From NCBI GenBank assembly GCA_903844785.1, contig CAIMVB010000242.1:1-18302 (forward strand): 18,302 bases of DNA, written 5' to 3'. The position numbers and the translations under genes are program-made. Below are positions 251 to 18,085 of this stretch, in pieces. The stretch comes from an uncultured Rhodospirillales bacterium (lineage in GTDB: Bacteria > Pseudomonadota > Alphaproteobacteria > Acetobacterales > Acetobacteraceae). The first letter of the stretch is position 1; each line of letters opens with the position of its first letter. The notes under the pieces were generated by a model. It saw nothing but the letters and a program-made list of their open reading frames with translations. It ran no database searches and was not told the origin of the DNA.

Positions 251-1843
251 TCAATTCGCTGGCTTCACCGCCATGGCCGTGGTGCGTTCATCCATGCGCG
301 GCGTATAGACAAAGCCGCGCCGCGTGGCCCAGACATTCACTAATTGGAATAGTGGGACCATCACCTGTTCATCCGTGGTGACCATCTTCACAGCCTCCCG
401 CAGCAGTTTTTCGCGTTCCGCATCATCCAGCGTGGCGGCGGCGCGTTCGGTGAGTGCGTCGAGCGCCGGATTGGAATAGCGCGATGAATTGGCGGCACCG
501 CGGCGCTTTTCCCTATCAAATGTGCCGAAGATATTGACCAGCATATAGGATGCTTCGCCGGTCACACTGCCCCAGCCGCCCATGCGGGCGTTGAATTCCT
601 GCCGCGCAGTGCGCGCGGCATAGGTGGTCCAGGGCAGGGTCTGCACTTCGGTGCGCAGCCCCACGCGTGTCCACATTTGCGCGACAGCCTGCGCCGTGCG
701 CGCATCATTCGGGTAGCGATCATTGGGCGCCATCAGCGTCAGGCGGAAGCCCTGCGGGAAGCCGGCTTCCGCCAGCAGGCGCCGCGCGCCATCAGCATCA
801 AAACGCGGCACGGGTACATCGGGGTTATAGGAAAAGGCACCGGGCGGCAGCCATTGGCCGGCTGGCTTGGCCGTGCCTTCCATGACGCGATCAGCCAAAG
901 CGTTGCGGTCGATGGCCATGGAAAGCGCGCGGCGCACCCGCACATCATGGAAGGGGTTGCGCGTGAAGGGCTTGCCTTCATTATCGCTAACCAGCACGGG
1001 GTTTTCCGCCCGCGAATAATCGAAGATCAGGTAGATCAATCGTAGCCCCTGGATTTCATAAAGCGAAATCCGTTGATCGCGCCGCAGGCGTTCCAGATCG
1101 GATGACGGCACCTGGTCAATCACATCCACATCGCCGGCCAGCAGGGCTGCGGTACGGGCCGCATCATTGGCGATGAAGCGGTAGGAAACCCGCGCCCAGG
1201 GTTGCGGCCCGGCCCAGTAATTCTCGTTCCGGGTGAATTCGGTGCGGTCACCTTGCCGGTAATTCGCCAGGCGATAGGGGCCAGTGCCAATCGCGGCGCG
1301 GCCGGAATTGTAATCCTCGGTCTCCGCCCCGCCGCCGGCATGGCGGGAAATGATCTGCACGGAAGCCAATTCCGTCGGCAGCAGCGGATGGGGTGCGGCG
1401 GTGTGAAAGCGGATGGTGAGCGGGTCTATGATTTCAGCGCGGGTAATGGCGCGGATCATGCCGGCGAAGGTGCCGGGGCTATTGCGCACATTGGGCACGC
1501 GTTCGATGGTGAAAACGACATCATCGGCAGTAAAATCCCGCCCATCATGCCACTTCACGCCGGGGCGAAGCTTGAATTCCCAAACGGTATCCGAAATGGG
1601 CCGCCAGCTTTGCGCCAGCATGGGCTGCAGCCGGGCTTCGGCATCCTGTTCCACCAGCCGGTCGAACATATGCTGCGTCAGGCTGATATTGGGCGATGCA
1701 TTGTAGAAATGCGGGTCAAGCGCGGTGGGAGAACCGCCGATACCAATGGTCAGATTCTGCGCTAAGGCGCCCGATGCGCCGATACCCGCCAGCAACGCGG
1801 CGGCAAGCGAAAGGGCAGGGATGCGGGACGGGGAGGGGGACAT
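251..1843 (-). CDS. ABC transporter substrate-binding protein, family 5 (peptide/oligopeptide type), paralogue 1
   Basis: A 530-residue periplasmic solute-binding protein of the DppA/OppA type (SBP family 5). It should capture a peptide-like ligand and deliver it to an inner-membrane ABC importer. The N-terminus is a Sec signal peptide: a weak n-region, a hydrophobic run over about residues 10-25, and an ALA-Q cleavage site after residue 28. There is no lipobox Cys, so it is probably soluble. The middle carries family hallmarks IGTGPYRL, NDAARTAALLAGDV and DVRVRRALSMAIDR. The start is supported by an AGAAGGAGA Shine-Dalgarno at 1851-1859 (minus strand), 9 bases before the ATG. It is divergent from a close paralogue at 1948-3534 and convergent with accC. 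No permease genes follow it, so it most likely shares the transporter encoded at 3550-7416. The ligand cannot be read from the sequence. Confidence 0.9.
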   Translation of the reverse strand: MSPSPSRIPALSLAAALLAGIGASGALAQNLTIGIGGSPTALDPHFYNASPNISLTQHMFDRLVEQDAEARLQPMLAQSWRPISDTVWEFKLRPGVKWHDGRDFTADDVVFTIERVPNVRNSPGTFAGMIRAITRAEIIDPLTIRFHTAAPHPLLPTELASVQIISRHAGGGAETEDYNSGRAAIGTGPYRLANYRQGDRTEFTRNENYWAGPQPWARVSYRFIANDAARTAALLAGDVDVIDQVPSSDLERLRRDQRISLYEIQGLRLIYLIFDYSRAENPVLVSDNEGKPFTRNPFHDVRVRRALSMAIDRNALADRVMEGTAKPAGQWLPPGAFSYNPDVPVPRFDADGARRLLAEAGFPQGFRLTLMAPNDRYPNDARTAQAVAQMWTRVGLRTEVQTLPWTTYAARTARQEFNARMGGWGSVTGEASYMLVNIFGTFDREKRRGAANSSRYSNPALDALTERAAATLDDAEREKLLREAVKMVTTDEQVMVPLFQLVNVWATRRGFVYTPRMDERTTAMAVKPAN

Positions 1844-1947
1844 GCCGGCATTCTCCTTCTATTGGGCTGGGCGATGCTAGCGGTGCCGCGCGCTGGCTGC
1901 TAGAAGGAAGTGAGGTTTGGCTCAAGAACAATAGGGGGTCTGGGGTG
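1844..1947. promoter_or_regulatory. Divergent control region between two paralogous substrate-binding protein genes
   Basis: This 104-bp gap separates two outward-reading genes, so it must hold the promoter of the left binding protein and that of the transporter operon. I see no convincing -35/-10 pair in either direction. The best minus-strand candidate is TTGAGC, 17 bases, then TAGCAG, which matches the consensus poorly. A short inverted repeat, CTAGC and GCTAG about 17 bases apart in the centre (around 1875-1902), could be an operator half-site pair, but is short enough to occur by chance. Ribosome binding sites lie at both edges: AGAAGGAGA on the minus strand at 1851-1859 and AGGGGG near 1932-1938 on the plus strand. 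Confidence 0.5.
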
Positions 1948-3534
1948 ATGGGTAATCTTCGCAAGCTGGCGCTGGCTGCCGGCACGGCTTTTATCGGCCT
2001 TTCGGCGCATGGCGCGCTGGCACAGAGTGTTACCATGGCGGTGGCAGCACCTGTCACTTCGCTTGACCCGCATTATCATCAGCTTTCGCCGAATAATGCA
2101 GTGGCAGATACCATTTTCGACAAGCTGGTGAATACGGACGCCAAATCGAACAACCTGCCCGGCCTGGCGCTCAGCTGGCGCGCTGTTGAACCCAATGTTT
2201 GGGAGTTCAAGCTGCGGCCCAATGTGCGCTTCCATAATGGCAATGAATTCACGGCTGAAGATGTGGCCTTCACGTTGCAGCGCCTGCCCAATGTACCCAA
2301 TAGCCCTTCTTCTTTCGCGGCCTATTCGCGGCCAATTCAATCCATTGAAATTGTTGATCCGCTGACCATCCGCTTCCGTACCGCCGCGCCGCATCCGCTG
2401 ATGCCGCTGGATATGACGAATGTCCGCATCCTGGACCGCGAGACGCATCAGAACGCGACGACCGAGGATTTCAACGCGGGCCGCGCGGCGATTGGCACCG
2501 GGCCCTATCGCGTGGTGTCGCATCGCAGCGGTGATCGGATTGAATTCGAACGCAATGACAATTATTGGGGGGACCGCGCGCCCTTCCAGCGTGTGCTGTA
2601 TCGCATGATCACCAATGATGCGGCGCGCACGGCGGCGCTGCTGGCCGGCGATGTCGAATTCATTGACCAGGTGCCGACATCGGATTTGGCGAAGCTCCGG
2701 CAGGATAATCGGATTGCGCTTTCTGAGACGGTTGGCCTGCGCCTGATCTTCCTGGGCTTGGATCACTTGCGCCAAGCGAATGAGAATTCGCCCTTCATCA
2801 CGGATAATGATGGCAAGCCGCTGGGCAAGAACCCCTTGCAGGATGTGCGGGTGCGGCGCGCGCTTTCCATGGCCATTGACCGCAAGGCCATTGTGGACCG
2901 CGTGATGGAAGGTGCCGCGGTGCCGGCGGGGCAATTCCTGCCAGAAGGCGTTTACACCCATGTGCCCAGCGTGACCCCGCCCGCTTTTGATCCTGATGCG
3001 GCGCGCCGCTTGCTGGCGGAAGCGGGCTATCCGCAGGGTTTCCGCATTCAGTTGAACGGGCCAAATGACCGCTATGTGAATGATGCGCGCATTATTCAGG
3101 CAGTCGGGCAGATGTGGACGCGCATTGGCGTGCGCACCACGGTGGAAGCGCAGCCCTGGACCACCTTTGTGGGCCGAGCGGGCCGAGCGGATTTTTCCTC
3201 TCACCTGATTGGCTGGGGTTCCAACCCGGACGGGTCGCATCCGCTGCGCAATATTCTGGCGACCGTGACGCGGGAGAAGGGCTGGGGTTCTTCCAATCGT
3301 GGACGCTATTCCAATCCGCGGCTGGATGCGCTGCTGGATCAGTCCTTGGTGGAATTGGATGAAGCCAAGCGCGTGCAGTTGGTGATTGAAGCGCAGCGCA
3401 TTGCGGCTGAAGATGTGGCGGTGATCCCGCTGCATATCCAGACCAATATCTGGGGTATGCGCCGGCATCTGGCACATGACGCGCGTAATGATGAGCTCAC
3501 GCGCGCACAGGATGTGCGCCCCGCGGCGCGCTGA
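1948..3534 (+). CDS. ABC transporter substrate-binding protein, family 5 (peptide/oligopeptide type), paralogue 2
   Basis: A 528-residue periplasmic binding protein of the DppA/OppA family and first gene of the transporter operon. The reading frame stays open far upstream, to 1696. I chose the ATG at 1948 because it gives a proper signal peptide (MGNLRKLALAAG, a hydrophobic core, cleavage at ALA-Q after residue 25), a purine-rich AGGGGG about 8-10 bases upstream, and a length matching the divergent paralogue. The two proteins share long identical blocks (GRAAIGTGPYR, NDAARTAALLAGDV, DVRVRRALSMAIDR, AARRLLAEAG) across their whole length and align almost without gaps, so they come from a duplication. 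Only 15 bp separate it from the first permease gene. It should be the main receptor of the importer. Whether it binds peptides, opines or another solute of this broad family is not visible. Confidence 0.9.
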   Translation: MGNLRKLALAAGTAFIGLSAHGALAQSVTMAVAAPVTSLDPHYHQLSPNNAVADTIFDKLVNTDAKSNNLPGLALSWRAVEPNVWEFKLRPNVRFHNGNEFTAEDVAFTLQRLPNVPNSPSSFAAYSRPIQSIEIVDPLTIRFRTAAPHPLMPLDMTNVRILDRETHQNATTEDFNAGRAAIGTGPYRVVSHRSGDRIEFERNDNYWGDRAPFQRVLYRMITNDAARTAALLAGDVEFIDQVPTSDLAKLRQDNRIALSETVGLRLIFLGLDHLRQANENSPFITDNDGKPLGKNPLQDVRVRRALSMAIDRKAIVDRVMEGAAVPAGQFLPEGVYTHVPSVTPPAFDPDAARRLLAEAGYPQGFRIQLNGPNDRYVNDARIIQAVGQMWTRIGVRTTVEAQPWTTFVGRAGRADFSSHLIGWGSNPDGSHPLRNILATVTREKGWGSSNRGRYSNPRLDALLDQSLVELDEAKRVQLVIEAQRIAAEDVAVIPLHIQTNIWGMRRHLAHDARNDELTRAQDVRPAAR

Positions 3535-3549
3535 ACCGGATAGGGCGAT

Positions 3550-4527
3550 ATGACCGTCTATCTCGTTCGGCGCTTATTGCAGGCACTGCTTGTTGTGCTG
3601 GCGATGTCGCTGATTGTCTTCATTGGCGTCTACGCCATCGGCGATCCGGTGGAAATCCTGATCAGCCCGGATGCGGACCAGATTGAACGCGAACGCGCCG
3701 TGCAGGCGCTTGGGCTCGATCTGCCGCTGTGGCAGCAATATGCGGTGTTCCTGACCAAGGCCTTGCAGGGCGATTTGGGACGGTCATTTGTTTATAATGA
3801 ACCGGCGCTGAAGCTGATTTTGCAGCGCATGCCGGCCACCATGGAACTGGCCTTTGGCGCCACCATTTTTGCGCTGATTATTGGCCTGCCCTTGGGGCTT
3901 TATGCTGGGCTCAGACCCAATAGCCGTTTCAGTCGCGTGATCATGGCCAGCTCCATTCTGGGCTTTTCGCTGCCCACCTTCTGGGTGGGGCTGATGCTGA
4001 TCATGGTGTTTGCCGTCTATCTTGGTTGGCTTCCTTCCACCGGGCGGGGGGACACCGGCACGCTTTTGGGCATGCAATGGTCCTTCCTGACCTGGGACGG
4101 GCTGCGCCATATGGCCATGCCTGCACTGAACCTATCGCTGTTCAAGATCAGCCTGGTCATTCGCCTGACGCGCGCCGGGGTGCGCGAGACCATGCTGATG
4201 GATTACGTGAAATTCGCCCGCGCGAAGGGGCTTTCCCCAGCGCGCGTGACCTTTGTGCATGTGTTCAAGAATATTCTGATTCCGGTGGTGACCGTGGTGG
4301 GCTTGGAACTTGGCAGCACCATCGCCTTTTCGGTGGTTACGGAAAGCGTCTTCGCCTGGCCCGGCATGGGCAAGCTCATCATTGATTCGATCAATGTGCT
4401 GGATCGGCCAGTGATTGTCGCTTACCTGATGCTGATTGTGCTGATGTTCATCGCCATCAACCTGATCGTTGATCTGACCTATTCAATGCTTGACCCGCGC
4501 GTCCGGCTGGAGAGCAAAGGCACATGA
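3550..4527 (+). CDS. Peptide-type ABC transporter permease, DppB/OppB-like
   Basis: A 325-residue inner-membrane permease. The N-terminal signature MTVYLVRRLLQAL followed by a long first membrane helix is typical of the DppB/OppB side of peptide importers. Then comes a periplasmic segment with LGLDLPLWQQY and GDLGRSF, and about five more membrane helices of the binding-protein-dependent transport fold. The cytoplasmic coupling (EAA) loop is around residues 212-236 (ETMLMDYVKFARAKGLS, then LIPVV). It pairs with the next gene product to form the channel. A GGATAGGG stretch lies just before the ATG. Its stop overlaps the start of the next gene by 4 bases (ATGA), which implies coupled translation and matched amounts of both permeases. 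Confidence 0.92.
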   Translation: MTVYLVRRLLQALLVVLAMSLIVFIGVYAIGDPVEILISPDADQIERERAVQALGLDLPLWQQYAVFLTKALQGDLGRSFVYNEPALKLILQRMPATMELAFGATIFALIIGLPLGLYAGLRPNSRFSRVIMASSILGFSLPTFWVGLMLIMVFAVYLGWLPSTGRGDTGTLLGMQWSFLTWDGLRHMAMPALNLSLFKISLVIRLTRAGVRETMLMDYVKFARAKGLSPARVTFVHVFKNILIPVVTVVGLELGSTIAFSVVTESVFAWPGMGKLIIDSINVLDRPVIVAYLMLIVLMFIAINLIVDLTYSMLDPRVRLESKGT

Positions 4528-5435
4528 GCGACGCCGTCATTCCCGGCAAAATCGCCGATAAGGTGGAAACACCCTTCCGGCGTTTTGTGTCCGAATTCGC
4601 TGAAAGCAAGGTAGCCCTTGGCGCGCTGGTGGTGTTCATCATCATCACATTGCTGGCGATTTTCGCGCCCTGGATCACACCGCAAAACCCTTATGATCTC
4701 GCAGAACTCGACATCATGGATGGGCGGATGGAACCGGGCACGGTGGGGGGCGCTGGCTTCACCTATTGGCTCGGCACGGATGATCAGGGGCGCGATATGC
4801 TGTCCGGCATCATCTATGGCTTGCGCATTTCGCTGACCGTGGGTGCCGGTTCGGCGCTGATTGCCTGCTTGATTGGTGCGTCCCTTGGCTTGCTGGCCGC
4901 CTATGCTGGTGGCCGGACCGATAGCGTCATCATGCGCTTGGTGGATTTGCAGCTTTCCTTCCCGACCATTCTGGCAGCGCTGATGATCCTGGCTTTCCTC
5001 GGCAAGGGCATCATGAATGTGGTGATCGCGCTGGTGTTGGTGGAATGGGCCTATTACGCGCGCACAGTGCGTGGCACGGCGCTGGTGGAACGGCGGCGCG
5101 AATATATTGAAGCAGCGCAATGCTTGGCTTTGCCGACGCATCGCGTGCTGTTTCGCCATTTGCTGCCCAATTGCCTGCCGCCCCTGATTGTGGTCGGCAC
5201 CATGCAGGTGGCGCGCGCCATTGCGCTGGAAGCAACCCTTTCCTTCCTTGGCCTTGGCGTGCCGATCACGGAACCATCGCTCGGCCTGCTGATTGCCAAT
5301 GGCTATGAATATATGCTGTCCGGCAAATACTGGATTTCCTTCTATCCCGGCATTGCGCTGCTGATCACCATTGTGTCCATCAATCTGGTGGGTGATCAAT
5401 TACGCGATGTGCTGAACCCGCGGTTGAAGAAATGA
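4524..5435 (+). CDS. Peptide-type ABC transporter permease, DppC/OppC-like
   Basis: A 303-residue second permease of the importer. It has the DppC layout: a cytoplasmic N-terminus (FRRFVSEFAESKVALGAL), a first membrane helix, a periplasmic domain holding the LGTDDQGRDMLSGIIYG signature near residues 84-100, and then five helices. The EAA loop begins at residue 196 (EAAQCLAL). The glycine usual at the seventh position of this motif is alanine here, a mild deviation I would expect to be tolerated. It ends in the family signature [13 protein letters not shown]. It overlaps the genes on both sides by 4 bases. The partner permease upstream and the two ATPases downstream complete the transporter. 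Confidence 0.92.
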   Translation: MSDAVIPGKIADKVETPFRRFVSEFAESKVALGALVVFIIITLLAIFAPWITPQNPYDLAELDIMDGRMEPGTVGGAGFTYWLGTDDQGRDMLSGIIYGLRISLTVGAGSALIACLIGASLGLLAAYAGGRTDSVIMRLVDLQLSFPTILAALMILAFLGKGIMNVVIALVLVEWAYYARTVRGTALVERRREYIEAAQCLALPTHRVLFRHLLPNCLPPLIVVGTMQVARAIALEATLSFLGLGVPITEPSLGLLIANGYEYMLSGKYWISFYPGIALLITIVSINLVGDQLRDVLNPRLKK

Positions 5436-6421
5436 ACATGACGGCGCCTACCTTAGAAGTTCGCGATCTCAAGACGCATTTCTTCACCCGCGCTGGCGTG
5501 GTGAAGGCGGTTGACGGCGTTTCTTTCTCCGTTGGCCGCGGCAAGGTGATGGGCTTGGTCGGTGAATCCGGTTCCGGTAAATCCGTCACGGGCTTTTCCA
5601 TCATTGGCCTGGTTGATCCGCCCGGGCGTATTGCGGGTGGTTCCATCCTGTTCCAGGGGCGCGATCTGGCGAAGCTTTCCGAAGAAGAGATGCGCGATTT
5701 GCGGGGCAACCGCATCGCCATGATCTTCCAAGACCCGATGATGACGCTGAACCCGGTGCTGCGCATTGATACGCAGATGATCGAAACGGTCCTGGCGCAT
5801 AAGAAGGTCTCGAAGGAAGAAGCACGACAGCGGGCGCGCGATACGCTTGGCATGGTGGGCATTCCGTCTCCGGATGAAAGGCTGAAGGCCTATCCGCATC
5901 AATTCTCGGGCGGGATGCGCCAACGTGTCGCGATCGCGATTGCGCTTTTGCATGAACCGCAATTGATCATTGCCGATGAACCGACCACGGCCTTGGATGT
6001 GACCATTCAGGGGCAGATTTTGGCCGAGGTGCAAAAGCTTTGCGCCACCACCGGCACATCCATGATCTGGATCACGCATGATCTTTCCGTGGTGGCGGGC
6101 CTCGCGGATGATATTGCGGTGATGTATGCCGGGCGTATCGTGGAAAAGGGCGTCGTCGGCGAAGTGCTGGACAGGCCGCTGCATCCTTACACGCATGGGC
6201 TGATTGGTTCTGTGCCCAGCCGCAACAAGCGTGGTGAGGCGCTGCGGCAAATCCCCGGCATGACGCCATCCTTGCTGAACCTGCCGCCGGGCTGTGCCTT
6301 CCGGTCGCGCTGCCCGCGCGCTTCCGAAGCTTGCCTGACGGAACCCTTGCTGGCGGAAATTCTGCCGGGGCGCGAAGCGCGCTGCGTACACCCCCATCTT
6401 GAAGCGCCGGAGGCCGCATGA
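5432..6421 (+). CDS. Peptide-type ABC transporter ATP-binding protein, DppD/OppD-like
   Basis: A 329-residue ATPase that powers import from the cytoplasmic face, as a heterodimer with the next gene product. All nucleotide-binding elements are present: Walker A GESGSGKS at 44-51, Q-loop Q100, signature FSGGM at 158-162, Walker B ending in D182-E183, and H-loop H216. The C-terminal oligopeptide-transporter domain follows, with four cysteines at 288, 294, 301 and 318. A related mycobacterial DppD has been reported to bind an iron-sulfur cluster in this region, from memory; whether this protein does is open. The start is the ATG in the 4-base overlap with the permease gene. A second in-frame ATG two codons on is an alternative. 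Its stop again overlaps the following start by 4 bases. Confidence 0.93.
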
Positions 6422-7416
6422 ACGCCGCACCGATGCTGGAACTGCGCGACATTACGCGCCGTTTTGAAAAGAAGCTGGATTTTGCCGGGCGCATCGCTCA
6501 GCGCCTGGGCGCGCCGGTGCGCGAAGAAGTGGTGCATGCGGTGGACCGCGTGAACCTGACTGTGCGCAAGGGCGAAGTGGTCGGCCTGGTCGGTGAATCC
6601 GGCTGTGGCAAATCCACGCTTGGGCGCATGGTGGCGGGCATTCTGCCACCCACCGAAGGCACCATTCTGCGTGATGGGCGCGATATCAAGGCGCTGACGG
6701 GTGCCGAAGCGCGGCAGATGAAACTCCGCACCCAGATGATTTTCCAGGACCCCTATGCGTCACTCAATCCCCGCATGCGTGTGCAGGATATTGTGGGTGA
6801 GGCGCCGCGTGTGCATGGGCTTTTGGATGGTGCCGCCTTTGATGATTATGTGGATGAACAAATGCGCCGCGCGGGGTTGGACCCAACCTTCAAGCGGCGT
6901 TATCCGCATCAATTCTCAGGCGGGCAGCGCCAACGCATCGGTATTGCGCGCGCACTCGCGGTGAAGCCCGATTTCATTGTGTGTGATGAAGCCGTGGCGG
7001 CGCTTGATGTTTCCATCCAGGCGCAAATTCTGAACCTATTCATGCGGCTGAGGCGCGAACTTGATCTGACCTATCTTTTCATCAGCCATGATCTTGGCGT
7101 GGTGGAACATCTGTCTGATCGCGTGGTGATCATGTATCTGGGCCGCGTGGTGGAGGAAGCGGATACGGAAACCGTCTTTCGCCGGCCTAACCACCCCTAT
7201 ACGCGGTCCTTGCTGGATTCAGTGCCGCGGATTGAAAATCGCAAGCGCGCCTTCAGTGTCGTGAAGGGGGAAATTCCTTCACCGATCAATCCCCCTGCTG
7301 GCTGCCACTTCCATCCGCGCTGCCCGCTGGCGACTGAACGATGCCGCGTGGAAGTGCCGAAGCTGCGCGAAGTGGCGCCGGGCCAACGCAGCGCCTGCCA
7401 TTTGAACGATCAATAA
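6418..7416 (+). CDS. Peptide-type ABC transporter ATP-binding protein, DppF/OppF-like
   Basis: A 332-residue second ATPase of the importer. Walker A GESGCGKS is at 59-66, Q110 is the Q-loop, the signature FSGGQ is at 166-170, Walker B acids are D190-E191, and the H-loop is H224. All catalytic residues are intact. The D-loop region reads DEAVAALD where DEPVSALD is the usual form. The C-terminal oligopeptide-transporter domain carries four cysteines at 296, 302, 309 and 327, parallel to those in the partner ATPase. Residues 18-37 ([14 protein letters not shown]) form the insert between the first strands typical of the OppF/DppF type. The stop codon TAA shares its last A with the ATG of a small lipoprotein gene, so the operon does not end here. 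Confidence 0.92.
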
Positions 7417-11854: not shown

Positions 11855-12610
11855 TCAGAGCAGAAGCGCGATAGACCCGGCCCCGATCAGCACAATCAGC
11901 GCGAAGCGCCGGTACCAGCTTTGCGGCACCACATGGAAAAGCCGCGCCCCGATGGGCACGCAGACCACCATGATGGGCAGCAGCACAGCGGTCCGGACCA
12001 GGACGGGCAGGTCAATCAGCCCCGCAAAAAGCGGCGGGAAGACTGAAACCAGGGAAATCACCGAAAAGAACAGGATCAGATTGGCCCGATGCGTTTTGGC
12101 GGCTTCCGGCCCGGCCAGCAGGTAGAGAATAACCGGCGGCCCAGACATGCCCGTGGAGCCCTTCAGCAAGCCAGAAACCGCCCCCACTGCCATATTCAGC
12201 GGCAGCGGGCGGGAGCCATGATACCGCCAGCCAGACAGCAGCAACCCGCCGAAAATCAACACAAAGGCGCCAATGGCACGGCGCAGCATGTCTCCATCGG
12301 CGGTCAGCAGGATATAGGCGCCAAGCGGGGTCATTAGCGCCGCCGTGCCCCCAATGGGCAGGATGACGCGCTGATCCGCATCCTTGAAAGCCTTTGGCAG
12401 CAATTGGATTGAAACGATCAGTTCCATCAGCAGCATGATGGGCACGCCCGCACGCGGGCCCCACATGACAGAATAGATCGGCGCCAGGATCACCGCGGTG
12501 CCAAAGCCGGCATAGCCGCGCATGAGGCCGGCAATGGCAGTGGCGAGCGCTGCGCCCAGCAGCCGCCAATCGGTCAGCAGCGGCAGGGCAGCGTTGATGA
12601 GGTCTGTCAT
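11855..12610 (-). CDS. TauE/SafE family membrane protein (putative anion or sulfite exporter)
   Basis: A 251-residue integral membrane protein with about 8 hydrophobic segments, the usual size for the TauE/SafE family. The N-terminal repeat signature is visible as [19 protein letters not shown] near residues 26-44. A matching second-half repeat is around [21 protein letters not shown]. This pair of G-rich motifs is the best family marker. Characterised members move sulfite, sulfoacetate or taurine-derived anions, but substrate cannot be predicted here. A link to the neighbouring moaA (molybdate enzymes include sulfite oxidases) is only a guess. The ATG overlaps the stop of the upstream DUF3553 gene by 4 bases. 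Confidence 0.86.
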
Positions 12611-12789
12611 CTTGCGGGTGGAGCCTCAATAATCAGGTCAATCAGGCGGGCATTGATCAATACCTTCCCGGCATGCTCGAAATTGACCGTGACGCGTTCC
12701 CCCACGACGGATTGGACCTGGCCCAGGCCCCAATCTGCCTCGGTTGGGTGGCGCACGCGCATTCCGGGTTCTATCAAAGCCATCACCAT
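12607..12789 (-). CDS. DUF3553 small protein (Tudor/SH3-like)
   Basis: A 60-residue protein with the DUF3553 pattern: EPGMRVRHPTEADWGLGQVQS, then a strand GERVTVNFEHAGK and a hydrophobic end ARLIDLIIE. The spacing of small strands and the WGLGQV turn look like the Tudor/SH3-like fold at the C-terminus of UvrD/PcrA helicases and in CarD-type RNA polymerase binders. That resemblance is my inference from the pattern and not an established function. An alternative ATG two codons in (12783) is equally possible, since neither has a clear Shine-Dalgarno. It is the first gene of the minus-strand run and diverges from the ChpT-like gene across 52 bp. Confidence 0.82.
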   Translation of the reverse strand: MVMALIEPGMRVRHPTEADWGLGQVQSVVGERVTVNFEHAGKVLINARLIDLIIEAPPAR

Positions 12790-12841: not shown

Positions 12842-13489
12842 ATGATGCAAGTGATCCCCGAACCTGAAAGCGCCGAAGGCGCCGATCTGCACCTACGCCT
12901 GACCCGCCTGATCGGGCTCAGGCTTTGCCATGATTTGGGGGGCCTTGCGGGCACCATCGGCAATGCGCTGGAAATGCTGAACGATGCCGGTGACGAAGCG
13001 GCTGATTTGGCCGGCGAAGCGGCGGATATGCTGCGCCGGCGCCTTTTGCTGTGGCGCGCGGTGCTGGGTAGTGGGGAAGCGCGCACGCTGGGGGCGGCGA
13101 CCGGCTTGCTCAAGGGCCAGATTGCTAGCGGGCGGGCGAACCTTGAGATGGGTGATCTGCCCGAATCCGCGCCACTTTCCGAAACATTGGTGCCGCTGCT
13201 GCTGAGCGCGATTTTAGTGGCTGGTGAGGCTTTGCCGCGCGGTGGGGTGGTGCGCTTGGCTGGTGATTTGCGCCACGAAATCACCATCCTGCCGATTGGC
13301 GCTGGCGCGAAATGGAGCCCTGTGCTGCTGCGCCAAGCCGCAGGCGCGCCGCTGCCTGCCAATATTTCCAGCCGGGATGCTTTGGCCTGGTGGTTTTGCA
13401 TCAGTGCCGGCGCTGCCGGGGTTGCCTTCAGCCTGGCCCTGCCATCTGGAGAGGCGCCAGCCGCTTTGGTTATGACTCTCCCGTCCTGA
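12842..13489 (+). CDS. ChpT-like histidine phosphotransferase
   Basis: A 215-residue protein of the ChpT histidine phosphotransferase family. The phosphorylated histidine is most likely His30 in LIGLRLCHDLGGLAGTIGNAL, matching the RLCHD block of ChpT at the start of its first long helix. A second helix (ADLAGEAADMLRRRLLLWRAVLG) completes the dimeric hairpin. The C-terminal part resembles a degenerate histidine-kinase ATPase fold with no N, G1 or G2 boxes, as expected for a non-kinase. In Caulobacter, ChpT passes phosphate from CckA to CtrA and CpdR. Here it heads an operon with cheA, cheW and cheY, 73 bp before cheA. The start ATG is doubled (ATGATG at 12842 and 12845), and the nearest AAGAGGA is unusually far upstream. 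Family confident, partner unknown. Confidence 0.85.
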   Translation: MMQVIPEPESAEGADLHLRLTRLIGLRLCHDLGGLAGTIGNALEMLNDAGDEAADLAGEAADMLRRRLLLWRAVLGSGEARTLGAATGLLKGQIASGRANLEMGDLPESAPLSETLVPLLLSAILVAGEALPRGGVVRLAGDLRHEITILPIGAGAKWSPVLLRQAAGAPLPANISSRDALAWWFCISAGAAGVAFSLALPSGEAPAALVMTLPS

Positions 13490-13562
13490 AGGCGCGGGTT
13501 TTACGCTTTATTCGCAAGCGCTGCCCCATAAACCTTTCTTGCGGCCAAGCCCGGGGATGGTG
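13490..13562 (+). other. Gap between chpT-like gene and cheA
   Basis: Seventy-three bases, unusually long for this tightly packed region. The first part is A/T-richer than its surroundings (GTTTTACGCTTTATTCGC, CCATAAACC), so an internal promoter for cheA is possible, but no consensus pair is convincing. The end holds GGGG just before two in-frame ATG codons, serving as a weak ribosome binding site for cheA. Confidence 0.3.
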
Positions 13563-15662
13563 ATGGACGATCTGCTGCCTGATTTTCTGCTGGAAACCCA
13601 TGAAGGCCTGAGCCTTGTTGAAAAGGCGCTGTCGCGATTGCAAGACGCGCCTGATGATGCGCCAACGCGCGCTGAGATTTTCCGGCAGGTGCATAACATC
13701 AAGGGGGCTTGCGGCTTTCTTGGCCTGCCGCGTTTGGAAAAGCTGGCTCATGCGGCTGAGAGCATGCTTGGCCTTTGTCGCGATGGTAGCCTGGCTGTGA
13801 CACCGCAGAGCATGGCGCCGCTTGTGGCAGCCATGGATGCCATGCGGCAGATTGTCTTGGGGCTGGAACAGCATGGCCAGGAACCCGCAGGCGATGATGG
13901 AGTGGTGATTGCCGCCTTGGAAGCGGCGTCCGTGGCGGCATCCCATGCTTTGCCTAAGCTGGGCGCCCCGGAGAAAGACCGCCCAGCCTTGGCACCTTTG
14001 CGGACGCTGCGCGTGCCGGTGGATGTGCTTGAAGATTTGCTGCGGCTGATGAGTGAATTGGCGCGGTCGCGCAATCAACTGATCCAATTGGCGCGTGCTT
14101 CTTCCGATAGCCAAATCTCTGCCGCCGTGCAGCGCCTTTCGCAAATCACGTCCGAATTGCAGGCGGGTGTGATGAAAACGCGCCTGCAGCCGATTGGCAC
14201 AGCTTGGGCGACAATACCGCGTCAGCTGCGTGATTTGGCGCACCAATTGGGCAAGAAAATCAATCTCAAAATACGCGGCGCGGATACTGAACTTGACCGA
14301 CAGGTTTTGGAACTGATCCGTGATCCGCTGATGCACATGCTGCGCAATAGCGCTGATCATGGGCTGGAAACCCCCGCAGAACGCCGCGCCGCGGGCAAAC
14401 CAGAGGTCGGACAGATCCGGCTGAATGCCTATCACCAGGCTCAGTATATCATCATTGAAATCAGCGATGACGGTCGCGGTTTGCCGCTGAAGGAGATCCG
14501 CGCCAAGGTCCAGGCCCAAGGGCTTGCGACGCAAGCTGAATTGGCACGCATGAGTGAAGATGATGTGCGCGGCTTTATTTTTCAGCCGGGCTTTTCCACC
14601 GCGCAGCAGATCACCCCTGTCTCCGGTCGTGGGATTGGGATGGATGTGGTGAAGGCCAATATCGAACGCATGGGTGGCACGATTGATCTGCGTTCAGAGG
14701 AAGGACGGGGCACAAGCTTCACGCTCAAAATCCCGCTGACGCTTGCCATGATTTCTGCCTTGATCGTGCAGGCGGGCGGTGAACGCTTTGCGCTGCCGCA
14801 GATTGGCGTAGTGGAATTGATACGCCTTGATGATTCACATGAAAGCGTGGCGCGCCTTGAGAGAATCAAGGGTACTTTGATGCTGCGCCTGCGTGATCGC
14901 GTACTGCCGGTGGTTTCACTGTCAACCCTGTTGCGGCTTGGGGTGGCTTTGGCTGAATGCCTTGAGCGATATGTGATTGTGACGCAGGTGGGAACTCATA
15001 GATTTTGTATCCTAGTTGACCGTATTTTGGATGTGGAGAACATCACGGTGAAACCGCTGGCGCCCATTCTGCGCCACATCACCATCTTCGGCGGCAATAC
15101 GATTTTGGATGATGGCAGCGTCATCATGATCCTTGATCCGCATGGCTTGGGGCGCGGCGCTGGTATTGCGCCCGAAGCCTTTGCCGAAGATGAGGAAATT
15201 ATCGAGGCACCACCGGCAATTAATGCGGTGACCAAAACACCGCTGCTGCTTTTCCGCGCCGGTGATGAAGCATTGCAGGCAGTGCCGCTTGGGCAGGTGA
15301 TGCGGCTTGAGGATATAGCGGTTGAGCGCATCGAGTTTGCAGGCGCTGCGCCATTTGTTGCACATCGCGGCCAATCCATGCCCCTGCTGCCCATGGGCGC
15401 GCATTGGCAAGCCCCAAAATCCGGCCGCCAAGCCGTGCTTGTGCTGTCCGACGGTGACCACCCCTTAGGCTTGATGGTGGATGAAGTTCTGGATGTGTTG
15501 GATGACGCCGTACTGATCCAACCTGAGGCAAGCCGTCCAGCGTATCTTGGCAGTGCGGAAGTTGCAGGACGCGTCGCGCAGGTGATTGATACGGGTTATT
15601 GGCTTTCGCGCGCTTATCCCGATGGCATCGCGGGCAGCCCCTTCTGCCGCCAAGGAGCCTGA
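13563..15662 (+). CDS. cheA: Chemotaxis histidine kinase CheA without P2, with two CheW-like domains
   Basis: A 699-residue cytoplasmic kinase. The Hpt domain spans about 1-105 with phospho-acceptor His44 (VHNIKGACGFLG). A linker of only about 40 residues follows, with no recognisable CheY-binding P2 domain. The dimerisation helices are at about 145-205. The ATPase domain is about 206-391: N-box HMLRNSADHGLE (258-269), G1 DDGRG (302-306), F-box FQPGF (340-344), G2 GRGIGMD (355-361), G3 GRGTSF (381-386), all intact. A CheW-like domain at about 396-530 is followed by a second one at about 555-690, which most CheA proteins lack. I chose ATG 13563 (MDDLLPDFLLETHEG), as related proteins begin this way and GGGG lies 6 bases upstream. 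ATG 13557 and TTG 13539 are alternatives. Confidence 0.93.
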   Translation: MDDLLPDFLLETHEGLSLVEKALSRLQDAPDDAPTRAEIFRQVHNIKGACGFLGLPRLEKLAHAAESMLGLCRDGSLAVTPQSMAPLVAAMDAMRQIVLGLEQHGQEPAGDDGVVIAALEAASVAASHALPKLGAPEKDRPALAPLRTLRVPVDVLEDLLRLMSELARSRNQLIQLARASSDSQISAAVQRLSQITSELQAGVMKTRLQPIGTAWATIPRQLRDLAHQLGKKINLKIRGADTELDRQVLELIRDPLMHMLRNSADHGLETPAERRAAGKPEVGQIRLNAYHQAQYIIIEISDDGRGLPLKEIRAKVQAQGLATQAELARMSEDDVRGFIFQPGFSTAQQITPVSGRGIGMDVVKANIERMGGTIDLRSEEGRGTSFTLKIPLTLAMISALIVQAGGERFALPQIGVVELIRLDDSHESVARLERIKGTLMLRLRDRVLPVVSLSTLLRLGVALAECLERYVIVTQVGTHRFCILVDRILDVENITVKPLAPILRHITIFGGNTILDDGSVIMILDPHGLGRGAGIAPEAFAEDEEIIEAPPAINAVTKTPLLLFRAGDEALQAVPLGQVMRLEDIAVERIEFAGAAPFVAHRGQSMPLLPMGAHWQAPKSGRQAVLVLSDGDHPLGLMVDEVLDVLDDAVLIQPEASRPAYLGSAEVAGRVAQVIDTGYWLSRAYPDGIAGSPFCRQGA
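15652..15657 (+). promoter_or_regulatory. Ribosome binding site fixing the GTG start of cheW
   Basis: AAGGAG, the best Shine-Dalgarno in the operon, lies within the last codons of cheA and 6 bases before GTG 15664. The next in-frame ATG (15673) would be 15 bases away, so the site favours the GTG. Confidence 0.7.
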
Positions 15663-15663
15663 C

Positions 15664-16131
15664 GTGACCGTCATGGAAAACCTGGCAGAGGCGTCGCTAG
15701 TGGCTGAGCAGGAAGATGATGTCTTTCTGATCGTGACGCTGGCCGGGCAGGCTTGCGGCCTTCCCGTGATGCTGGTGCGCCATCTGCTGGGCCCGCAGGT
15801 CATCACGCCTATTCCCCTGGCACCTTCGGGCGTTGTTGGTGGGTTTAACCTGGGCGGACGCATTGTGACGGCGATTGATCTGCGCCGGCGTCTGAGCCTA
15901 CCGATTGCTGATGATGCTTCGGTTATCAACGTGATCGTGGAATATGCGGGCGCCTTATACAGCCTGATCGTGGATCAGGTTCAGGAAGTGCAGCCCCTGC
16001 AAGTCAGCAAAACCTATCCCATACCACCGCGGCTTGACCCGCTTTGGCAGGATTTGGCGCGCAATATTTATCGCTCCGACGACCAGATGATTGTGATGCT
16101 GGATGTCGAACGCCTTCTTTGTATCGGATGA
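15664..16131 (+). CDS. cheW: Chemotaxis coupling protein CheW
   Basis: A 155-residue scaffold protein that links CheA to chemoreceptors in the signalling array. The two five-stranded CheW subdomains are visible: DDVFLIVTLAGQACGLPVMLVRHLLG at about 18-43 with the hydrophobic GVVGGFNLGGRIVTAIDLRRRL strand pair at 57-77, then VIVEYAGALYSLIVDQVQEVQPL at about 90-112. Length fits the family. Translation should start at GTG 15664, set by AAGGAG 6 bases upstream; one base separates the cheA stop from this start. The stop overlaps the cheY ATG by 4 bases. It differs clearly from both CheW-like domains of the adjacent CheA, so it is a genuine separate adaptor. Confidence 0.9.
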   Translation: MTVMENLAEASLVAEQEDDVFLIVTLAGQACGLPVMLVRHLLGPQVITPIPLAPSGVVGGFNLGGRIVTAIDLRRRLSLPIADDASVINVIVEYAGALYSLIVDQVQEVQPLQVSKTYPIPPRLDPLWQDLARNIYRSDDQMIVMLDVERLLCIG

Positions 16132-16523
16132 AGAACATCATGCAGAATCGCTCTTGCCTTATCGTGGATGACAGTCAGGTGGTCAGGCGCGCCGCGCGGC
16201 GCATTGTCGAAGGCTTTGGCTTCACAGTGCATGAGGCGAAAGATGGTGCCGAAGCCTTGGCATTTTGCCAAACCGAATTGCCCGAAGCCGTGCTGCTTGA
16301 TTGGAATATGCCAATCATGGATGGGCTGGAATTTCTGAAGCATGTGCGCGCTGAATATGGGCCTGCGCGGCCGATTATAGTGCTTTGCACCACTGAAGCC
16401 GGCATTGACCGTGTTGTGGAGGCCTTGGCCATCGGCGCGCAGGAATATGTCATGAAGCCCTTTGATGCCGGCATCCTGCAGGACAAATTCGTCCAGGCCG
16501 GCCTGCTTGCAGATATCGCCTGA
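16128..16523 (+). CDS. cheY: CheY-like single-domain response regulator
   Basis: A 131-residue receiver domain with no output domain. The acidic pocket is D14-D15, the phospho-acceptor D58 (LLDWNMP), T88 and K110, with the switch tyrosine at Y107 (AQEYVMKPF). These positions match E. coli CheY shifted by one. It should take phosphate from CheA and bind the flagellar switch, or act as a phosphate sink or relay partner of the ChpT-like protein encoded in the same operon. The ATG at 16128 forms an ATGA overlap with the cheW stop, so I chose it; ATG 16140 is a shorter option. It is the last gene of the operon; cheB and cheR do not follow. Confidence 0.92.
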   Translation: MKNIMQNRSCLIVDDSQVVRRAARRIVEGFGFTVHEAKDGAEALAFCQTELPEAVLLDWNMPIMDGLEFLKHVRAEYGPARPIIVLCTTEAGIDRVVEALAIGAQEYVMKPFDAGILQDKFVQAGLLADIA

Positions 16524-16647
16524 TATCTTCTGGGTGCTTGGCTTCGCCAGAAAGTGGCGCGCGCAAGGGGGTAGTGATGCTCAGAAAAGCTCTCAGGTCG
16601 CCAGATCACGCGCGGCACGCATGCGCCAAGTGGTGCAAGGTCTCCGC
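16524..16647. other. Convergent intergenic stretch after cheY
   Basis: The gap between the convergent cheY and tldD genes holds no gene I can support. Near cheY there is a small hairpin, TGGC-TTC-GCCA, around 16540-16551, nested in a TTCTGG/CCAGAA pair, without a T-tract, so it is at best a weak or factor-dependent end for the che operon. Confidence 0.35.
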
Positions 16648-16669
16648 AAAAACCGCGCTAAACGGCGGT
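16648..16669 (-). terminator. Possible weak intrinsic terminator overlapping the tldD stop
   Basis: On the minus strand the sequence ACCGC, an 8-base loop containing the tldD stop codon TAG, then GCGGT runs into a short T-tract (five T in all). The 5-bp stem is short, so efficiency would be low, but position and polarity suit the end of tldD. Confidence 0.38.
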
Positions 16670-18085
16670 GCCGCCCACCGTCAGCCCGGTCAGTTTCAGT
16701 GTCGGCTGGCCAACGCCCACCGGCACGCCCTGGCCCTGCTTGCCGCATGTGCCAATGCCGGGGTCAAGCGCCATGTCATTGGCAACCATGCTGACCTTGG
16801 TCAGCGCATCCGGCCCATTGCCGATCAGGGTCGCCCCCTTTACCGGCGCGCCGATTTTGCCGTTTTCAATGAGGTAAGCTTCTGATGCGCTGAAGACGAA
16901 TTTGCCGGAGGTGATATCCACCTGCCCACCGCCGAAATTCACTGCGTAAATGCCGCGCTTCACACTGCCCAAAACTTCTTCCGGCGTATGGGCACCACCC
17001 AGCATCACCGTATTCGTCATGCGCGGCATCGGCGCATGGGCATAGCTTTGGCGCCGGCCATTGCCTGTGGGTGCAACACCCATCAGCCGCGCATTCTGCC
17101 GATCCTGTAAAAAGCCCACCAGCACGCCATCTTCAATCAAGGTGGTGCGCCCGCTTGGCGTGCCTTCATCATCCACGGTCAGGCTGCCGCGCCGATCCGG
17201 CAGCGTGCCATCATCCACCACCGTCACACCGGGGGCGGCGATGCGCTGGCCAAGCAAGCCCGCAAAGGCCGAGGTCTTTTTGCGATTGTAATCGCCTTCC
17301 AGCCCATGGCCGATCGCTTCATGCAGCAGAATGCCGGGCCAGCCGGGACCAAGCACCACTTCCATCTCTCCGGCAGGCGCGGGCACGCTGCCAAGGTTCA
17401 CAAGCGCTTGGCGCAAAGCCTCATCCACGCCGCGCTTCCAGCCCTCATTGCCCAGCACGCGTTCATACGCAAAGCGCCCGCCCGTGCCAAAGCTGCCGGT
17501 CTCCCGCCGGTCGCCTTCCTTCACCACGACCGAGACATTGAAGCGCACCAGCGGGCGTAAATCTGCCAAGCGCTGCCCATCCGGGCGCAGGATCTGCACC
17601 GCCTGCCATTCCCCGGTGATGGAGGCCATTACCTGCACCACGCGCGGGTCTCGCGCGCGCGCATAGGCGTCAATTTCCTGCAACAGCGCGGTCTTGGCAG
17701 CGAAATCCATCTGCGTAAGCGGATTGGCATCGGTGTAAAGCCGCGCATTTGTGGCACGCGGCGCGATATCCAAAGCGCCGCTATGGCCCTGGCGCACTGC
17801 CTTCACTGCGGCTGCCGCACGCGAAAGCGCAGCGTCCGACAATTCCCCCGCATGGGCGTAGCCTGCGGCTTCACCGGCCACGGCACGCAGGCCAAAGCCG
17901 CGCGTTGCATCGTAGCTGGCAGAACGGATGCGGCCATCATCCAGCGAAATCGCCTCACTTTCGCGGTATTCCAGGAAAAGTTCTCCATCTTCACAGCCCG
18001 CCGTTGCGTCGCGCAATTGGCGTTCGGCCCCCGCGCGATCCAGCAGCGTGAAGAACAGTTCATCGGTGATGCCGAGCGCGTTCAT
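16658..18085 (-). CDS. tldD: Metalloprotease TldD
   Basis: A 475-residue TldD protein. With PmbA/TldE it forms a metalloprotease known from E. coli for microcin B17 maturation and CcdA antitoxin turnover, in which TldD carries the zinc site. That site is visible as HEAIGH at 255-260 with the third ligand Cys447 in GIGTCGKQGQ. The N-terminal fold (ELFLEYRESEAISLDDGRIRSASYDATRGFGLR) and C-terminal GNGPDALTKVSMVANDM block are typical. The frame stays open to 18211, but the ATG at 18085 is preferred: AAGGAA lies 5 bases upstream (18091-18096) and the length equals the family norm. It follows a COX15-type gene by 17 bp, suggesting one transcript. No pmbA is in the window. Confidence 0.94.
   Translation of the reverse strand: MNALGITDELFFTLLDRAGAERQLRDATAGCEDGELFLEYRESEAISLDDGRIRSASYDATRGFGLRAVAGEAAGYAHAGELSDAALSRAAAAVKAVRQGHSGALDIAPRATNARLYTDANPLTQMDFAAKTALLQEIDAYARARDPRVVQVMASITGEWQAVQILRPDGQRLADLRPLVRFNVSVVVKEGDRRETGSFGTGGRFAYERVLGNEGWKRGVDEALRQALVNLGSVPAPAGEMEVVLGPGWPGILLHEAIGHGLEGDYNRKKTSAFAGLLGQRIAAPGVTVVDDGTLPDRRGSLTVDDEGTPSGRTTLIEDGVLVGFLQDRQNARLMGVAPTGNGRRQSYAHAPMPRMTNTVMLGGAHTPEEVLGSVKRGIYAVNFGGGQVDITSGKFVFSASEAYLIENGKIGAPVKGATLIGNGPDALTKVSMVANDMALDPGIGTCGKQGQGVPVGVGQPTLKLTGLTVGGTAV

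Follow-up and report, generated by a model that had tools for sequence, protein, structure and literature searches.

A ChpT-type phosphotransferase gene at the head of a reduced chemotaxis operon and its neighbourhood across the Alphaproteobacteria

In an uncultured Rhodospirillales bacterium, the gene of a ChpT-type histidine phosphotransferase stands first in a chemotaxis operon, and about half of the alphaproteobacterial families sampled have kept the same order. Because the arrangement of chpT and che genes recurs across many alphaproteobacteria, it is an inherited neighbourhood and not a local oddity. As ChpT hands phosphate on to CtrA, a regulator of the cell cycle, the arrangement is a lead towards a possible connection of chemotaxis with the cell cycle. 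We regard it as fairly probable that this is an old motility-control locus, in which the CtrA relay and the chemosensory array stay together through shared purpose and not through any obligation of CheA to phosphorylate ChpT. The ancestral locus would have read DUF3553 / chpT-cheA-cheW-cheY-cheB-cheR / ctrA, with a receiver domain on its CheA and, in Azospirillum sp. B510, with fliI-fliJ beyond. The locus described here would be what remains of such an ancient locus headed by chpT. The relay would decide when flagella are made and the array would steer them, and the two modules would be held together by this common service to the flagellum, by inheritance and perhaps by expression; CheA need not feed ChpT. 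The persistence of the order in so many families could also mean a functional coupling tighter than shared purpose. These data suggest that the genes of the CtrA relay and of chemotaxis have stood side by side from an early point in the history of the class.

The operon and its ChpT

The window, by which we mean the whole stretch of 18,302 nucleotides that was analysed, carries on its + strand chpT (12842..13489), cheA (13563..15662), cheW (15664..16131; PF01584, 82.8 bits) and cheY (16128..16523; PF00072, 89.9 bits). The four genes are co-directional with gaps of 73, 1 and -4 nt, the start of cheY overlapping the stop of cheW by 4 nt. The ATG at 13563 was chosen as the start of cheA by homology to its sisters, and the list of open reading frames also holds an alternative TTG at 13539. 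According to Pfam, CheA consists of an Hpt (P1), a dimerisation, an ATPase and two CheW-like (P5) domains, and has no C-terminal receiver. CheY is a single receiver domain which, as read from its sequence, keeps the acidic pair, the phospho-acceptor D, the T and the K. A sequence scan of the chpT-cheA gap found no terminator-like or promoter-like site, and we infer that chpT, cheA, cheW and cheY are co-transcribed. On the - strand, divergent from chpT, lies the gene of a 60-aa DUF3553 protein (12607..12789; PF12073, 90.9 bits). A short gap behind cheY (16524..16657), the place of cheB and cheR in same-genus relatives such as L027 and L028 (locus and genome numbers are our own), separates the operon from the convergent metalloprotease gene tldD (16658..18085, - strand; Pfam). 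The tldD gene also follows cheR in L027 and L028, and the same side holds ctrA in four other same-genus loci. The original prediction of a ChpT-like protein with an intact RLCHD motif, first in a co-directional cheA-cheW-cheY operon, is thus borne out by open reading frames, Pfam and fold alike. Elsewhere in the window, positions 251-7416 hold genes of an oligopeptide-type ABC transporter, among which a family-5 binding protein, a permease and an ATPase were confirmed; another binding protein of similar appearance is encoded on the opposite strand of this region.

The ChpT protein of 215 aa is identified by its open reading frame, Pfam, alignment and predicted fold. It passes the Pfam family PF10090 (HPTransfase) with 36.4 bits at a cut-off of 22.9, and no kinase, receiver or other Pfam family was found in it at 0.01 besides this one. 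The motif R27-L-C29-H30-D31, with the phospho-acceptor H30, sits on helix 11-44 of the structure model, and its R, C, H and D are invariant in 13 aligned sequences including the window's. The helical hairpin and the kinase-like C-terminal domain of the model correspond to the fold of solved ChpT; in this comparison Foldseek matches were re-aligned by VIA-align, and families missing there are not thereby excluded. ChpT chains in the PDB also match the protein by sequence (best 2.3e-7). In the structural alignment it is 23-25% identical to Caulobacter crescentus ChpT (CC_3470; PDB 4fmt), to 4fpp, which is named only 'bacterial phosphotransferase', to 4qpj, an entry that includes a receiver domain, and to 4qpk, presumably from Brucella. 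Its genomic setting, a che operon, differs from that of these solved ChpTs. The protein scores 42.5 of 225 and 37.8 of 240 bits with the NCBIfam ChpT equivalogs NF046025 and NF046018, which, judged by their names, we take to be of Caulobacter and Brucella/Rhizobium type, respectively, and so stays below both cut-offs. Three other ChpTs also miss both, far more narrowly (177-218 bits), and the two models therefore look lineage-specific. A genome-wide search returned a single chpT. The other three PF10090 matches in the genome, open frames of 501-615 aa of which one is a CckA-like kinase, were rejected as a second copy.

Gene order across the class

A class-level search gave a ChpT match in at least 186 of 289 genomes. 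From the matches listed, one per family was taken for 80 families (74 loci from the class-level search and six from separate searches), a sample that favours well-scoring ChpTs, and the genes around chpT were mapped by BLASTP and a ChpT profile. Two further loci (L039 and L040) of the contaminated genome G018 were excluded from the family counts. Of the 80 ChpTs, 69 have the motif R-x-C-H-D (R or K as its first residue), and 77 fit a looser form with any residue for C and E allowed for D.

In 41 of the 80 families cheA lies directly behind chpT on the same strand, the overlapping cheA of L104 included, and two more have it at a distance of 2.5-10 kb. With about one orthologous cheA per about 4 Mb, well under one such adjacency would be expected by chance in 80 genomes. 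All ten ChpT loci examined in the window's own genus have cheA directly behind chpT, and these loci together with the 41 families rule out a chance or local arrangement. How common the order might be had been left open by the original prediction; it proves to be widespread. An eleventh same-genus genome, G005, gave neither a ChpT nor a CtrA match; it was considered as a natural chpT knockout and dropped, as its che contig ends inside cheA.

The association extends to the other end of the locus, where ctrA is found convergent downstream of chpT in 43 of the 80 families (counting the overlapping ctrA of L111). Both cheA and ctrA are present at the chpT locus in 25 families. Another 18 have the convergent ctrA with no cheA behind chpT in the stretch taken; the relay genes therefore keep company without cheA as well. 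Loci without cheA, such as L040, L110 and L119, look as if che genes had been inserted between chpT and ctrA, or lost from there. The distance from chpT to ctrA is within 100 bases in ten of the listed cheA-less loci. Ten families have cheY and/or cheR directly behind chpT without cheA, nine of them cheY, and 14 have none of cheA, cheY, cheR and ctrA there, five of these with less than 7 kb of downstream sequence. In 39 of the 80 loci chpT has a divergent DUF3553 gene beside it, a persistent neighbour. A second set, of named loci, comprised the best 80 of 211 relatives, many of them Kiloniellales; 37 of these loci have cheA adjacent and 26 have it at 2.5-10 kb, ctrA is convergent in 34, and eight have no such neighbour. 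In five of five loci looked at (L177, L181, L189, L196 and L204, from Kiloniellales and relatives), a solute-binding-like gene stands between chpT and the che operon and fills part of the 3-6 kb gap; its identity as an extracellular solute-binding protein was checked with Pfam in L189.

In published work, ctrA, cckA and chpT of Rhodospirillum rubrum are associated with flagellar genes, and chemotaxis genes stand in the flagellar cluster (PMC12363192). This remark comes nearest to the present finding; the parts of that paper drawn on here mention neither a che operon headed by chpT nor the spread of such an order through the class. Likewise, the portions of the open-licence literature consulted held no description of chpT heading a che operon across the class. 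As summarised in the sections used, the Rhodospirillales cluster of one best-hit survey is without a chpT orthologue (PMC2877005), and another survey reports chpT in 27-36% of Rhodospirillales genomes (PMC8116508). With the gene order described here the position of chpT can be predicted: immediately upstream of a cheA that encodes two P5 domains, often with ctrA at the other end. Divergent ChpTs can be found in practice by this means.

The original prediction had also suggested that the operon may be controlled together with motility by CtrA. We take TTAA-N7-TTAA to be the CtrA-box consensus. With at most one mismatch allowed, the stretches upstream of chpT hold no such site, neither in the window nor in the ten same-genus loci; CtrA-box control of the window's operon was rejected on this result, and the suggestion of shared control is left unsupported. 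In the family sample, CtrA-box-like sites are present at 18 of 66 loci against 4.7 expected, and exact matches at 4 against 0.4; both expectations come from random stretches of the same loci, a background unmatched for intergenic composition.

Reduction of the chemosensory half

A C-terminal receiver is the rule for CheA proteins encoded next to chpT. It was found in 36 of 40 CheAs longer than 600 aa at ChpT loci of the family sample and in 55 of 59 at the named loci (best 80 of 211 relatives). The 36 receivers of the family sample keep the phospho-acceptor D in 35 cases and the K in all, and the T/S position is occupied by A in five. All seven complete CheAs of the same genus carry this receiver, and the window's CheA does not. 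For the majority of CheAs encoded at ChpT loci the match spans the length of the query, with up to 1204 bits and about 53-70% identity; most other CheAs align over the kinase region only, under about 370 bits. Exceptions occur on both sides. First, the linked CheAs of G022 and G058 (L097 and L112) are of the low-scoring, receiver-less type, so that this kind accounts for two or more of the 41 adjacent CheAs. Second, a full-length-type cheA stands away from chpT in G015, G021, G083, G104, G117, G188, G196 and G270, and second copies of this type away from chpT are present in G018 and G174.

Reduction in the window goes beyond the CheA receiver. Its cheY is not followed by cheB and cheR, which the same-genus loci carry downstream of cheY wherever their sequence extends far enough. 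In the genome, CheB and CheR domains were found only in one open frame of 1056 aa on another contig (G000:C399:395-1771); long frames with both domains were also seen in G001, G005 and G015. A single chemoreceptor was found in the assembly, a protein of 425 aa with a HAMP and a signalling domain and no other Pfam domain (L170 9555-10832).

Relative rates were compared by counting residues unique to the window against residues unique to the sister G004, with L026 as outgroup. The counts are 134/22 for CheA and 32/1 for CheW, against 5/5 for CheY and 8/6 for ChpT; two other genes, TauE (5/10) and MoaA (6/4), were included. With the sister G006 the result is the same: 136/24 for CheA, 34/2 for CheW, 5/4 for CheY and 9/9 for ChpT. 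The frames of CheA, CheW and CheY stay open and their dN/dS is well under 1. To judge from these sequences, the kinase-coupling half of the window's operon is being remodelled, and ChpT and CheY are not. The original prediction had proposed a flow of phosphate between the Che pathway and the CtrA relay. The association of the two is broader than it claimed, given the ctrA genes at the far end of the locus; however, the phosphate flow is not favoured in this organism, where the CheA receiver, cheB and cheR are gone and CheA and CheW, unlike ChpT, evolve fast. ChpT is normally constrained here without an intact CheA of this type, and Ruegeria KLH11 is reported to use a CckA-ChpT-CtrA relay without recognizable chemotaxis genes (PMC3692519). 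For these reasons CheA is not considered a necessary donor of ChpT.

The losses, the fast CheA and CheW and the one receptor found would also be expected if the order were inherited without present function, with chpT under a promoter of its own and the window's che genes decaying. Consistent with such a relic, some relatives keep chpT and have their full-length cheA elsewhere (for example G015, G021, G083, G104 and G270). Against it stand the open frames of CheA, CheW and CheY with their low dN/dS, and the retention of the order in about half of the sampled families; we hold this explanation to be quite unlikely.

Another explanation starts from the two products of the operon that keep a normal rate in the window's lineage, ChpT and CheY. 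They could exchange phosphate, so that the relay tunes the motor or CheY serves ChpT as a sink. The families that keep cheY and/or cheR behind chpT without cheA fit this cross-talk, as does the report that Caulobacter ChpT serves more than one receiver, CtrA and CpdR (PMC2877005). The argument is, nevertheless, one from conserved gene order, and CheY is slow-evolving here, which makes its ordinary rate weak evidence. Co-change of protein distances is of limited use in this matter. Plain distance correlations between ChpT and CheA (0.74, n=33) and between ChpT and CtrA (0.61) only show shared vertical history. Partial co-change with the ChpT dimerisation domain at 33 loci is -0.02 for the CheA receiver (corrected for CheR and CheB), 0.19 for CheB and 0.27 for CheY, and in the same test the CtrA receiver reaches only 0.10 and the CtrA DNA-binding domain 0.42; the test fails to single out the CtrA receiver, a known partner, and therefore cannot judge CheA, CheB or CheY. 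CheY in any case scores lower than the CtrA DNA-binding domain, for which no contact with ChpT is expected. Cross-talk of ChpT and CheY appears fairly improbable to us, and the joint locus of shared purpose is retained as the preferred reading.

Known relatives and the rest of the relay

Azospirillum carries the locus in a more complete form. In RefSeq, Azospirillum sp. B510 has in succession DUF3553, a histidine phosphotransferase, CheA (annotated as CheW), CheW, a response regulator, CheB, CheR, CtrA, FliI and FliJ, with a few small opposite-strand genes in between. The same chpT, che and ctrA genes are present in A. brasilense MTCC4038 and Sp7, and the CheA of Sp7 bears a receiver. This Azospirillum che operon flanked by chpT and ctrA shares with the window DUF3553, the order chpT-cheA-cheW-cheY and two P5 domains in CheA; it differs in the CheA receiver, cheB, cheR and adjacent ctrA, which the window has lost (its ctrA is on another contig). 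Che1 of Azospirillum belongs to the F5 class; its CheA1 has two P5 domains, against one in CheA4 (PMC6759762). Three Azospirillum operons are described as orthologues of R. centenum operons (PMC3245306). The first R. centenum operon encodes CheAY, whose receiver has an uncertain role there, possibly that of a phosphate sink (PMC2993699). This CheAY of Rhodospirillum centenum (Rhodocista centenaria) ends in a CheY-like domain as do the CheAs of the window's relatives, in contrast to the window's own, and the A. brasilense CheA of this locus shares, over 72% of its length, 81% identity with a protein from Rhodocista pekingensis. Two P5 domains with a CheA receiver, the R. centenum CheAY and the operon orthology together indicate that the chpT-flanked locus of Azospirillum is probably Che1/F5. 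Of the F5/Che1 features, the window has the two P5 domains and lacks the CheA receiver and the cheB and cheR of the operon. Its system may thus be filed as a reduced derivative of F5/Che1 rather than as a full member.

In relatives with the intact locus, signals could also branch from CheA to CtrA: from receptors to the P1 domain of CheA, on to the CheA receiver, to ChpT and to CtrA, or back. The hybrid CheA would be a second input kinase by which receptors influence CtrA, the timing of motility and perhaps cell length. The prevalence of the CheA receiver, the conservation of its D and K and a kinase-receiver logic like that of CckA are consistent with this branch, and in A. brasilense Sp7 the genes of ChpT, of a CheA with receiver and of CtrA follow in that very order. 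With a conserved, CckA-shaped CheA beside ChpT and CtrA, an input from receptors into ChpT becomes a concrete hypothesis for these relatives; if true, it would provide a function for the CheA receiver and might account for the Che1-dependent cell length of Azospirillum. A membrane-bound isoform of CheA1, with seven transmembrane helices and seen in one laboratory's Sp7 strain, has been credited with the role in cell length (PMC8561660). The public Sp7 sequence (plasmid p1, L277 11176-14070) does not fit this, as no seven-transmembrane domain was found ahead of its cheA. In Sp7, MTCC4038 and B510 the open frame of cheA starts only shortly ahead of P1, which does not bear out the idea that the cheA of this locus carries the membrane domain linked to cell length. 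With no room for such a domain in the public sequence, the link to cell length is suggestive only and the equation with CheA1 tentative. In the window's organism, whose CheA has no receiver, the branch would be at most indirect, and the lineage would be one that lost it. Other observations also count against it. Co-change of ChpT with the CheA receiver is nil, though in a test that lacks power; the KLH11 relay works without recognizable che genes; and a search of 54 ChpT-bearing genomes, 20 of them picked for a linked cheA and the rest mostly without, with at most 16 candidates scored per genome, gave a CheA match at 1e-50 in 37 genomes and none in 17. We consider such a branch unlikely, and continue to favour a locus held together by shared purpose.

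The rest of the relay could be followed in the window's genome. Its CtrA exceeds the curated cut-off (G000:C186), and FlhA is also present. The CckA model NF046020 gave no match at 1e-100 in this genome. With the CckA of a relative as query, one match was obtained at 1e-40, a PAS-HisKA-ATPase-receiver kinase of 510 aa (264 bits). When this short hybrid kinase is set among non-orthologous kinases, CckAs score 253-274 bits and hybrid-kinase paralogues 220-249 bits. It is a probable shortened CckA, by a small margin over the paralogues. The window's ChpT would accordingly serve this organism as the phosphate shuttle between the CckA-like hybrid kinase and CtrA, a route that we infer from the set of components. 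The short kinase (about 510 aa; L262 141-1673 on G000:C53) is conserved in the genus, with counterparts on G006:C45 and G007:C59, and in G006 and G007 its gene lies about 2 kb from flhA. In the window's genome a ddl-ftsQ-ftsA-ftsZ cluster has ctrA at its end, facing ftsZ convergently (L169 44-5686, on G000:C186). This links ctrA with division genes in the window's lineage, unlike in four same-genus relatives, where ctrA stands beside the che operon.
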